Positions 13,307 to 25,389 of a stretch of 37,415 bases of DNA are shown here, piece by piece. Position numbers and translations under genes: made by a program. The notes under the pieces are model-generated. The model did not search any database. It was not told the DNA's origin and was given only the letters and a program-made list of their open reading frames with translations. Source of the stretch: Pseudomonadota bacterium (GTDB lineage Bacteria > Pseudomonadota > Gammaproteobacteria > Burkholderiales > Thiobacillaceae). How positions within the stretch are numbered: position 1 is the first letter of the stretch; each line of letters opens with the position of its first letter. The stretch lies in assembly GCA_021783275.1 (NCBI GenBank), contig JAJXUA010000010.1, forward strand, positions 1 through 37,415, written 5' to 3'.

Positions 13307-13714
13307 ATGAATACAGAAACCCTTCACCACAGAGACACAGAGACACAGAGAAATGCGTTGACCGACAGGGTCATCGGCGCAGCGATCGAGGTTCATCGTG
13401 CGCTCGGACCAGGACTGCTCGAGTCTGCCTATGAAACCTGCCTTTGCCATGAACTCGGGCTTCGACAGATTCACTTTCAGCGGCAGCTGGAACTGCCGGT
13501 TGTTTACAAGGAAATGCCACTCGACGCCGGTTATCGGCTCGATATCGTCGTGGAAAAACAACTGGTGCTCGAACTCAAAGCCGTAGAGAAACTCCAGCCA
13601 GTACATGAAGCACAATTGCTGACCTATCTGAAATTGTCCCAACTGCGCACCGGATTGTTGCTCAATTTCAATGTGCCCGTGATGAAAAGCGGTATCAGGA
13701 GAATCTCTTTATGA
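13307..13714 (+). CDS. GxxExxY family protein (PD-(D/E)XK nuclease-like) carried within an inverted-repeat element
   Basis: [10 protein letters not shown] (GxxExxY) motif; [15 protein letters not shown] resembles PD-(D/E)XK D..ExK; N-terminus HHRDTETQR is translated repeat arm. Confidence 0.88.
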
Positions 13715-13779
13715 TTTCCCGGAAACCAGCGCGTTCAGGTCATTCTCTGTGTCTCTGTGCCTCTGTGGTGAGCGGTTTC
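13316..13779. mobile_element. Inverted-repeat element copy 2 carrying the GxxExxY gene (~464 bp)
   Basis: Left arm GAAACCCTTCACCACAGAGACACAGAGACACAGAGAA (13316-13352); right arm TTCTCTGTGTCTCTGTGCCTCTGTGGTGAGCGGTTTC (13743-13779); 3 mismatches over 37 positions. Confidence 0.8.
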
Positions 13780-15294: not shown

Positions 15295-15301
15295 TCCAAT
15301 C

Positions 15302-16783
15302 ATGATGTTCGCCCACCGCCTCCTCTTGCTCGCCACCCCACGCCAGATCGGCGTGCTCGACTGGCGTCCGGGTCATCTGCACTGGCTGGGGGAATTCAGC
15401 ACCAGCGCCGAGGGCATCGCGGGTTTCCGCCAGGTGGTGCTGCGCCACCGGCATTTGCCCGCGCTGGTGGTGGCCGATACGGTGGACGAGGATTACCGCA
15501 GCGAAATCCTGCCGCATGTGCAGGGCCGCGCACGCGACGCCCTGCTCACCCGCAAGCTGAAACAGGTGTTCCGCAACGCCCGCTTCACCGGGGCCTGGCG
15601 GCAGGCGCGCGAACACACCGGGCGGCGCGACGACCGCTATCTGCTCGCCGCGATGACCGATGCCGAATGGCTGATGCCCTGGATCAGCGTGCTGCTGCAG
15701 GAAAACGCGCCGCTCATCGGCGTCACCCCGCTCGCCATGGCCAGCCAGTATCTGCTGCCGCGCCTGCACGTGAGCGAACCGCATGTGCTGCTGGCGTGCC
15801 GCTTCAACAACGGCCTGCGCCTGTCGTATTACCAGGACGGCCAGCTGCGTTTTTCGCGCCTGATCGGGTCGGATACGCCCACCCAGTTCAGCGGCAACGC
15901 GGCCGAAGAAATCGCCAAGACCCAGCTCTATCTCACCGGCCAGCGCATCCTGCCGCGCGAGGCCCGACTGCATGTACTGCTGCTCGACCCCGCCGGTCGG
16001 CTCGACAGCGCACAGGCGCAGCTCAACGCCGATCCCGCATTCAGTACGCGGCTGGTGGATATGGTCAGCCTCGCGCGATCGCTGCATATCCCCGAAGACT
16101 TTCTCGCCACCACGCCCGACATGGCGATGCTGGCGGCTGTCGGCGGCGAAACACCGTCGCTTAATCTGGCCCCCGCCGACCTGCTGAAACGGCATCTCGA
16201 ATTCCAGTGGCGGCGCGGCCTGCATCTCGCCGCCGCCAGCGTCGCCGTGGTCGGCATTGCTGGCAGCGTCGCCTACAGCCTGCACGCCCAGGCGTTGCGC
16301 GACGAGGCACGCGTGATCCAGACCCAGAGCTTGCGCGCCGACCAGCAGCACCGTGCCATCGTGAGCCGCTTTCCTGCGCTGGCAACGCGCCCCGATCAGC
16401 TTGGCCAGACCCTCACCCTCGCCACGCGCCTCAACGCCGCGCCACTCGACATCGCGGCCCTGTTTGTGCCGCTGGGCCAGGCGCTGTCGGCGCATCCCGA
16501 CGTGGTGTTAAAGCAGGTCGCCTTCAACGACCTGGGCCAGGGCAGCGCCAGCCTGCGCATCGACGCCCACCTCGCCCGTTTCGACGGCAACTACCGCGCC
16601 GCGATGGCGCGCATCGACCGCTTCGCTGCGCGGCTCGCCTCCACCCCCGGCGTCACCGGCGTCGAGCGCCTCGACAATCCGGTGAACACCGCCCCCACCG
16701 CCACGCTCACCGGCACCACCACCGGCGAAACCTCGCCCGACGAAACCCGCTTCAGTCTCAGCGTGCAGGTGCGCCCGTCATGA
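15302..16783 (+). CDS. mshI: MshI-like (PilM/GspL-like) pilus biogenesis protein
   Basis: MMFAHRLLLLATPRQIGVLDWRPGHLHWLGEF; PilM-like region then TM helix and PilN-like periplasmic part; between mshG and mshJ. Confidence 0.65.
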   Translation: MMFAHRLLLLATPRQIGVLDWRPGHLHWLGEFSTSAEGIAGFRQVVLRHRHLPALVVADTVDEDYRSEILPHVQGRARDALLTRKLKQVFRNARFTGAWRQAREHTGRRDDRYLLAAMTDAEWLMPWISVLLQENAPLIGVTPLAMASQYLLPRLHVSEPHVLLACRFNNGLRLSYYQDGQLRFSRLIGSDTPTQFSGNAAEEIAKTQLYLTGQRILPREARLHVLLLDPAGRLDSAQAQLNADPAFSTRLVDMVSLARSLHIPEDFLATTPDMAMLAAVGGETPSLNLAPADLLKRHLEFQWRRGLHLAAASVAVVGIAGSVAYSLHAQALRDEARVIQTQSLRADQQHRAIVSRFPALATRPDQLGQTLTLATRLNAAPLDIAALFVPLGQALSAHPDVVLKQVAFNDLGQGSASLRIDAHLARFDGNYRAAMARIDRFAARLASTPGVTGVERLDNPVNTAPTATLTGTTTGETSPDETRFSLSVQVRPS

Positions 16784-17373
16784 TGCGCCCGCCCATCGCC
16801 TCGCTCAAAACCGCACTCGCGCTGCTGCTCGCCGCGCTGCTGCTGAGCGCCGCCGGGCTGCTGTGGAGTCGCGGCGAAGCGCAGACGGCGCAACAGGCCC
16901 TGGACACCCAGCAAGCCACCCTGCGCGCCGCCCAGGGCCGGCAACAGCAGGGCGAATCCGAAGCCCGTCTGATCCGCCAGCACCTCGACGCCTATCAAAG
17001 CCTGGCGGCACGCGGCTTCATCGGCGCGGAAAACCGCCTCGCCTGGATCGAGGCCGTGCAGCTCGCCAACCGCGACGCGCGCCTGTATGGCCTGACCTAC
17101 ACTCTGTCACCGCGCGCCGCAGCCACCGCCGATTTATCTGGCGGCCTGCCTTTGCAGCAAACCCGCATGACCGTGAAACTGCCGCTGCTGGTGGAAACCG
17201 ACCTGCCGCGCTTTCTCGCCGCCGTTCGCGCCCGCGCGCCTGGCATCTTCCGCGTCGCCAGTTGTCAAGTGCAGCGCGTGTCCGACGTCCGCACCCAGGC
17301 GCTCGACCGTCCCGAACTCGATGCTGAATGCGAACTGCTGTGGTTCACCATTGCGACTGGGGAGGGATCGTGA
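16780..17373 (+). CDS. mshJ: MshJ/PilO-like pilus biogenesis protein
   Basis: N-terminal TM segment plus coiled-coil; start overlaps mshI stop (ATGA). Confidence 0.6.
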   Translation: MMRPPIASLKTALALLLAALLLSAAGLLWSRGEAQTAQQALDTQQATLRAAQGRQQQGESEARLIRQHLDAYQSLAARGFIGAENRLAWIEAVQLANRDARLYGLTYTLSPRAAATADLSGGLPLQQTRMTVKLPLLVETDLPRFLAAVRARAPGIFRVASCQVQRVSDVRTQALDRPELDAECELLWFTIATGEGS

Positions 17374-17455
17374 AAACCTGTTCACCACAGAGACACAGAG
17401 ACGGGGAGAAAAGCAGGGGTACGTCTATCCATCCTGATTTCGTCATTGCGAGCCC

Positions 17456-17506
17456 AGCGAAGCAATCTAGCGTAGCGAAGCAATCTAGCGTAGCGAAGCA
17501 ATCCAG
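17456..17506. repeat. 18-bp tandem repeat, ~3 units (AGCGAAGCAATCTAGCGT)
   Basis: Two identical units at 17456 and 17474 plus a partial variant from 17492. Confidence 0.9.
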
Positions 17507-17678
17507 TAGCGTCGTATCCAGCCCGGCGCGGATCAATCCGAAAACCGTCTCACCACAGAGACACAGAGGCACGGAGAAGAACTGCGGATCGAACGGCATT
17601 CAGCAAGCATTCGGGCTGAAATTTTCATTTGGGCTAAAACATTTGTTCAGACAAAAACATCCGCTCAGTCTGAACTAT

Positions 17679-17766
17679 CCGTTCGGGCTGAGCTTGTCGA
17701 AGCCCCCAGGCACCAGGCTCGCTTCAGCCACCCTGCCCTGCCCTTCGACAGGCTCAGGGCGAACGG
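17679..17766. repeat. Imperfect inverted repeat CCGTTCGGGCTGAGCTTGTCGAAG ... CTTCGACAGGCTCAGGGCGAACGG
   Basis: Direct reading of both arms. Confidence 0.85.
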
Positions 17767-17774
17767 TGCACAGA

Positions 17775-18158
17775 ATGCTGTCTCTTTGCGCCATTGGGGT
17801 TTTCTCTTTGTCTCTGTGCCTCTGTGGTTCAGGGTTTGCTGCCAGCCCCGACCCCGGTCGCCTGTTCTACACCCCCGCCGAACGCGCCCGTCTCGAAGCC
17901 GCCCGCGTCCGCACCGTCACCCGCCCCGGCGCAGCAGACAGCGAATACAGCGCGCCCGCGCCCATCCATTACGACGGCATCGTCACCCGCTCGGACGGCC
18001 AGACCACGCGCTGGGTCGATGGCCGCGCACAGGCCGGCGACGCCCGCGTCCTCGGCCTCAAGCCCGGCCAGATCCGTGCCGATGGCAAGGTGTACGAACC
18101 CTATCAAATCCTGCGCGACGCGCCGCCGGACGCGCCCGCCAAGGAGCCCACGCCATGA
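17775..18158 (+). CDS. mshK: MshK-like small periplasmic protein with repeat-derived signal peptide
   Basis: MLSLCAIGVFSLSLCLCGSGFAASPDPGRLFYTPAERARLEAARV..YDGIVTRSDGQTTRWVDGRA..VLGLKPGQIRADGKVYEPYQI; position downstream of mshJ. Confidence 0.6.
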   Translation: MLSLCAIGVFSLSLCLCGSGFAASPDPGRLFYTPAERARLEAARVRTVTRPGAADSEYSAPAPIHYDGIVTRSDGQTTRWVDGRAQAGDARVLGLKPGQIRADGKVYEPYQILRDAPPDAPAKEPTP

Positions 18159-24981: not shown

Positions 24982-25389
24982 TGGTGCAGATCACAACACC
25001 TCTCACCACAGAGACACAGAGGCACAGAGACTCATACTGTCTGAGTGGTGGCACTCGTGATAACCCTGTCTGTTTTTCTCCCCGTCTCCGTGCCTCTGTG
25101 GTGAAAGGTTTCAGGGATCTGCTGATTTATTCAGGCTTGGTCATTGCGAGCAAAGCGAAGCAATCCAGAATGTCAGCACAATTAACCGCTCCTGGATCGC
25201 CACGTCACTTCGTTCCTCGCGATGACCGAACAATGCAGCGTTTCCTTGGCGGTGTGATGGTGCGGATCACAGCACCTCTCACCACAGAGACACAGAGACA
25301 CAGAGACTCATACTGTCTGAGTGGTGGCACTCGTGATAACCCTGTCTGTTTTTCTCCCCGTCTCCGTGCCTCTGTGGTGAAAGGTTTTA
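24979..25389. repeat. 276-bp-period tandem duplication containing two element copies (5 and 6)
   Basis: TGATGGTGC(A/G)GATCACA(A/G)CACCTCTCACCACAGAGACACAGAG at 24979 and 25255; identical cores CTCATACTGTCTGAGTGGTGGCACTCGTGATAACCCTGTCTG. Confidence 0.88.
25142..25225. repeat. REP/MITE-like inverted repeat
   Basis: CATTGCGAGCAAAGCGAAGCAATCCAG ... CTGGATCGCCACGTCACTTCGTTCCTCGCGATG. Confidence 0.85.

Follow-up and report, generated by a model that had tools for sequence, protein, structure and literature searches.

Sequence comparisons point to a dispersed inverted repeat as the source of a proposed MshK-like signal peptide in some Thiobacillus species

The window, the whole 37,415-nt stretch of DNA analyzed here, carries an MSHA-type pilus operon with the gene order MshL-type secretin, TPR protein, MshE-type ATPase, GspF-type protein, mshI, mshJ, MshK-like gene and prepilin. 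The score behind the secretin assignment (TIGR02519) fell just below the curated cut-off; the ATPase was recognized by its MshEN domain, and the platform protein is of the GspF/PilC type. The mshI-like gene (15299..16783, + strand), which had no match of its own in Pfam or NCBIfam, was named from its position downstream of MshL, MshE and the platform protein. It is followed by the mshJ-like open reading frame (16783..17373, +), with a TGA stop at 17371-17373 that overlaps a GTG at 17370. The mature MshK-like protein and its stop (17841..18158, +; stop codon 18156-18158) begin with ASPDPGRLFYTPAER. No family in Pfam or NCBIfam matched this protein at E <= 1, and the name MshK-like is used because its identification rests on operon position. 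Named homologs suggest that the window belongs to Thiobacillus. Homologs of the mature protein were present in 52 of 56 Thiobacillus genomes, and the motif GRLFYTPAERA showed no variation among 11 aligned homologs. An AlphaFold model of the protein, too low in confidence to support a fold search (mean pLDDT 67.5), placed a helix across the hydrophobic core of its N-terminus.

This N-terminus coincides with one arm of an inverted repeat. The ATG at 17775-17777 opens the MshK-like ORF, which reads MLSLCAIGVFSLSLCLCGSGFAASPDPGRLFYTPAER with the N-terminus MLSLCAIGVFSLSLCLCGSGFAA. The initial annotation had proposed that the right arm of a repeat element lies in frame with the ORF and supplies its export signal, and both the DNA and the reading that it gave were exact. 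The right arm (17800..17837, +; DNA TTTTCTCTTTGTCTCTGTGCCTCTGTGGTTCAGGGTTT), which is supported by its membership of a dispersed repeat and by the purifying selection described below, encodes the hydrophobic core FSLSLCLCGSGF and directly precedes FAA/SPDPGRLFYTPAER in the same frame. The proposed signal peptide, MLSLCAIGVFSLSLCLCGSGFA (17775..17840, +), was delimited by hydropathy and a G-x-A motif, with predicted cleavage at GFA|A. The left arm (17372..17412, +), recognized as an inverted repeat with 17800-17828, reads KTCSPQRHRDGEKS. Between the arms lie later insertions (17413..17770, +) comprising a GCGAAGCAATC tandem, a second left arm (17540-17578) and a TTCGGGCTGAGCTTGTCGAAGCCC palindrome; the tandem and the TTCGGGCTGAGCTTGTCGAAGCCC/CCCTTCGACAGGCTCAGGGCGAAC palindrome are two other repeat types, nested within the split element at 17440-17770. 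The right arm pairs with the left arms at 17384-17412 and 17552-17578, and the arms are 86% complementary over 29 nt.

The arm belongs to an abundant family. With up to three mismatches allowed, TCTCTGTGCCTCTGTGGT had 63 matches in the 2.53-Mb source assembly against 16 for a reversed-pattern control; at 17811-17828 the match is perfect. A 27-nt version of the arm gave 33 matches and the control none. Dispersed elements are built as GAAAACCnnTTCACCACAGAGACACAGAG..., a variable loop and then ...TTTTCTCTGTGTCTCTGTGCCTCTGTGGTnnnnGGTTTT, with copies starting GAAAACC..CACCACAGAG, and both arms were found in 17 of 21 among the arm clusters listed for the source genome. Across the 56 genomes the number of copies ranged from 0 to 123 per genome (control 0-1). 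The element thus resembles MITE-type small palindromic mobile repeats in being short, with inverted arms and many dispersed copies whose number varies between related genomes. The family had no match in Rfam, and no description of it was found in the literature, including a search by sequence letters. A RAYT was considered as mobility partner and rejected, as Y1_Tnp is absent from the source genome and bears no relation to copy number.

To place the locus in context, we compared the 51 MshK loci with a readable N-terminus among the 56 genomes of the genus. A repeat-made N-terminus was present at 12 of them, about a quarter (G000, the source genome, and G002, G007, G013, G014, G022, G023, G030, G032, G034, G061 and G063; apparently mostly draft or metagenome assemblies), and at the other 39 the signal peptides are of the ordinary kind and unrelated to it (for example MNRHPAWLKRFAHLPILLLAMLGTWGESLAA), being diverse among themselves. 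In ten carriers, G022 among them, a single frame runs through the entire element from the ATGA that overlaps mshJ, so that the left arm gives the hydrophilic, Arg-rich MKTCSPQRHRD and the right arm the hydrophobic core, followed by G/S/V-x-A. The overlap of the mshJ stop with the mshK start is present in carriers and in most relatives. The distance from the start codon to GRLF is a multiple of three in 11 of 11 relatives, inserts of 30 nt (a second short repeat, in G013, G030 and G032) and 18 nt (in G007) included, and no in-frame stop lies between the start and the mature part in these 11. Translation in G030, G032 and G061 must begin in or before the left arm, because the internal ATG is missing there. 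In G002 and in the source genome later insertions have pushed the arms apart, by about 300 and 360 nt respectively. The stretch at 17413..17770 is absent in 10 of the other 11 carriers, and G002 has a different one. Both genomes have kept the right arm with an upstream Met at equal distance, and since stop codons lie between the arms of G002, its protein must start downstream of them. A second match in G061 (C132) proved to be a further mshK copy, truncated by the end of its contig. The second short dispersed repeat, TATGTCCCGCAGGGACGGTATCCCTTGGG (also L186, L185), has inserted into the left arm at mshK of G002, G013, G030 and G032 and is absent from G061, the sister of G030.

When the interval from the mshJ stop to GRLFYTP was compared with that of close relatives lacking the element, none of the 12 carriers retained any remnant of the old signal, which therefore appears to have been replaced rather than merely interrupted. 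Replacement, which the initial annotation had also suggested, has the best support: exactly here, relatives lacking the element carry signals that are ordinary and unrelated, the homologs that share the repeat-made N-terminus all have the repeat, and the arm evolves as a protein segment. The earlier proposal needed revision on three points. The whole element was captured and not the right arm alone; the event is older than the source genome and common to 12 species, the initial annotation having missed the 11 others with this N-terminus; and in the source genome a later insertion has split the element.

Read in frame, the element looks like a Sec signal. The mean hydropathy of the 12-residue core was 2.31 in the source genome, 1.65-2.38 among carriers and 1.45-3.14 in ordinary MshK signals, carriers being on average slightly less hydrophobic than ordinary relatives (p = 0.013). 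Small residues occupy positions -3 and -1 (GFA|A in the source genome, G/S/V-x-A in 12 of 12 carriers), placed as in ordinary relatives, and the net charge of the N-terminus read from the left-arm ATG is mostly positive in carriers (0 to +5), although the source genome read from ATG 17775 has no Lys or Arg ahead of the core. We infer that the repeat-derived N-terminus is a Sec signal peptide cleaved by signal peptidase I. All three forward frames of the right arm encode hydrophobic peptides, whereas the three reverse frames are hydrophilic, with many Arg, Lys and His residues. Because the arms are complementary, one would supply a hydrophilic n-region and the other a hydrophobic h-region, and an element with such frames would by itself encode an n-region and then an h-region, predisposing it to act as a signal peptide. 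The same property means that any forward insertion would look signal-like, and together with the ambiguous start in the source genome it raises the possibility that the arm overlaps an open frame by chance, without working as a signal, while MshK starts elsewhere or is dispensable. We regard this as distinctly unlikely, given that a signal peptide is always present at this place in relatives, that coding-type constraint and frame are retained in the 11 other carriers, and that the mshK arm persists where every other recognizable copy has been lost.

That constraint was estimated from all pairs of the 11 relatives. The pN/pS of the right arm was 0.24 (codon bootstrap 0.10-0.50), compared with 0.79 (0.43-1.82) for the left arm and 0.76 (0.58-1.09) for the loop; these estimates are coarse, since the arm spans only 23 codons. 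As a control for the mutational habits of the repeat itself, 135 dispersed arms from G002, G013 and G022 were read in the mshK frame. Relative to the consensus, these differed by 64 synonymous and 135 non-synonymous changes, while the 11 mshK arms had 15 synonymous and 6 non-synonymous changes and none at second codon positions. The difference was significant at p = 5.6e-4, or p = 0.041 when each kind of change was counted once, although both values serve as a guide because the counted changes are not independent events. In G063, G023 and G034 the mshK arm is the sole recognizable arm in the genome (up to 3 mismatches in 27). Being single there, it would have been kept after the family vanished, and in these genomes its conservation cannot be due to repair from other copies. 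The right arm thus appears to be under purifying selection at the protein level.

Alternatively, the element could have been kept for a DNA or RNA hairpin, acting in translational coupling or mRNA control of mshK, with the peptide incidental. The arms are still able to pair in most carriers. However, no pair is altered on both sides, and an RNA hairpin as the selected feature was rejected for this absence of compensatory changes. Furthermore, the left arm decays, its pairs turning into G-U or mismatches, while the right arm retains its amino acids, and it does so even in G002 and the source genome, where the arms are about 300-400 nt apart. We therefore consider a hairpin role highly improbable, and favor selection on the encoded peptide.

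In the source genome, the splitting of the element by about 360 nt of further repeats leaves two candidate starts. The initial annotation took the ATG at 17775 as the start; the ORF is as it described, but it overlooked the in-frame GTG (17370..17372, +), which overlaps the mshJ stop as GTGA. This GTG occupies the likely ancestral mshK start position, with an orthologous ATG in 10 other carriers, and is preceded at 4-5 nt by a ribosome-site-like GGGAGG (17360-17365). From it the frame runs straight into the left arm and through 135 open codons of repeats up to ATG 17775, and on to the mature protein. The ribosome site is better at the GTG than at the ATG, where no clear Shine-Dalgarno sequence is seen and no Lys or Arg stands ahead of the core. 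A start at the GTG would place the hydrophobic core about 145 residues from the N-terminus. The strong ribosome-site-like sequence, the stop-to-start overlap and the long open frame could thus mean, for the source genome alone, that mshK is on its way to being lost or yields a long non-exported fusion. This is a minority possibility that keeps some weight. It contrasts with the parallel case of G002, which must start downstream, and with the mature MshK-like part of the source genome, which is intact and 52-66% identical to its relatives. We favor translation from ATG 17775 by analogy with G002, whose counterpart equals the proposed signal peptide in length and register; only the right arm would then still serve.

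The distribution of carriers does not follow the genes around the element. A tree built from mshI, mshJ, prepilin and mature mshK requires nine changes of carrier state, eight of them forced by well-supported branches, and mature mshK alone also rejects a carrier clade; a vertical single-clade origin was rejected by these trees. The G022 loop was found at mshK of G007, G013, G014 and G030 (84-90% identity) and nowhere else in the 56 genomes. Across the six species of loop group A, dS was 0.17 for the loop, 0.92 for mshJ and 0.61 for mature mshK, and since the loop looks neutral, its low value indicates a segment younger than the surrounding genes. Conversely, the close set G002/G022/G023/G063 shows 62% identity in the loop and 91% in mshJ. 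Loop distances did not correlate with mshJ distances (r = 0.00, p = 0.48), whereas those of mature mshK did (r = 0.70). The exchanged stretch appears to include the end of mshJ. G007 and G034 have the same tail after the conserved LLWFTV codons (27 of 27 nt), although identity between their mshJ genes is 66%, and the tails of G014 and G030 are 93% identical. In 11 carriers out of 12 the nearest mshJ tail is that of another carrier; the tail of the source genome had no close match. Distant carriers resemble one another more closely in loop and mshJ tail than in the flanking genes, which points to horizontal exchange of this segment. The sequences are most simply explained if the element was captured once and the mshJ-end/mshK-start segment was then exchanged through homologous recombination.

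Two other histories were weighed against this account. In the first, the element would have inserted several times independently, always at one mshK site and always yielding an in-frame signal, with no horizontal transfer of the segment; this would fit the scatter of carriers on the tree and the abundance of the element in several of them. Such a history is very unlikely, as the loop common to distant carriers occurs only at mshK, the mshJ tail that carriers have in common lies outside the element, and a simple insertion would leave the old signal beside it, an arrangement seen in 0 of 12. A single ancient insertion in the genus ancestor, inherited vertically and followed by at least eight losses to new ordinary signals, would explain why position and mshJ overlap are the same in all carriers. 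It too is unlikely, since it conflicts with the low loop dS of group A and with the diverged loops of the close set.

Together, the data suggest that, in a Thiobacillus ancestor, an inverted-repeat element probably displaced the 5' end of mshK and came to encode the Sec signal peptide of its product. An element of about 110-130 nt would have taken the place of the mshK start, with the left arm as n-region (MKTCSPQRHRD) and the right arm as h-region ending before an A-x-A-like site, a near ready-made signal peptide. The segment would then have spread between species by recombination in the conserved flanks encoding LLWFTV of mshJ and GRLFYTP of mshK, and later repeats would have split the element in the source genome, where the right arm alone may still serve. 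With little better than even confidence, we further propose that the element is an intrinsically portable signal peptide, captured once by mshK and then spread among Thiobacillus as an exchangeable segment bounded by these mshJ and mshK motifs.

Related cases have been described in other bacteria. The RU-2 (Yersinia palindromic sequence) in YPO1552 forms residues 1-30 of a 41-residue signal predicted in silico, at one locus common to Y. pestis and Y. pseudotuberculosis (Delihas, 2007, PMC2759123; PMC2229807). In Thiobacillus, by comparison, both arms are used, 12 species were compared, selection on the arm was measured, and the segment has apparently moved between species and lies in a pilus-assembly gene. 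Rickettsia palindromic elements (RPEs) are widespread in-frame insertions into many unrelated genes (PMC10969869). Like them, the Thiobacillus elements are palindromic repeats of about 100-150 nt read in frame within protein genes. Unlike RPE-type insertions, which leave the host protein otherwise intact, the mshK element substitutes for a functional N-terminal segment in a single gene and assumes its role, the old signal being absent from every carrier. Coxiella QMITEs are likewise short inverted-repeat elements with many copies and occasional in-frame fusions; the passages on intragenic QMITEs in PMC5896051 describe fusions that extend or interrupt ORFs, and do not describe a role as export signal. 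The mshK case is of the same kind as RU-2/YPO1552 and the RPEs, with the addition of whole-element capture, measured selection and a patchy, apparently horizontal distribution. In the literature searched it is, by sequence, the best-documented case of a small bacterial mobile repeat turned into a working protein part, with position, frame, selection and history all readable from 51 relatives. It illustrates how 'junk' repeats can turn into such parts, provides a simple rule by which inverted repeats whose arms are T-rich can generate export signals, and offers a natural replacement series in which ordinary and repeat-made signals stand on the same mature protein.

Copies of the element also lie at most msh operon junctions in the source genome (11512-11602, 13326-13769, 15044-15292 and 17370-17837) and again at 25005-25378, about 25 kb into the window, far denser than in the rest of the assembly. 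At the mshE/mshG junction, a PDDEXK_3 / GxxExxY gene (13355-13705; Pfam E 4e-44) is framed precisely by inverted arms belonging to this repeat family (13326-13769). This domain, PF13366, was found in 9 of the 56 Thiobacillus genomes, flanked in four by the same arms and in five by different inverted arms of similar size. The gene-bearing form may be the autonomous member of the family, and the MITE-like repeats its gene-less copies. At L079, L172 and L173, the right end of dispersed elements (GGTGAGG...) lies immediately 5' of the ATG of the next gene, and the repeat may thus also donate Shine-Dalgarno sequences.
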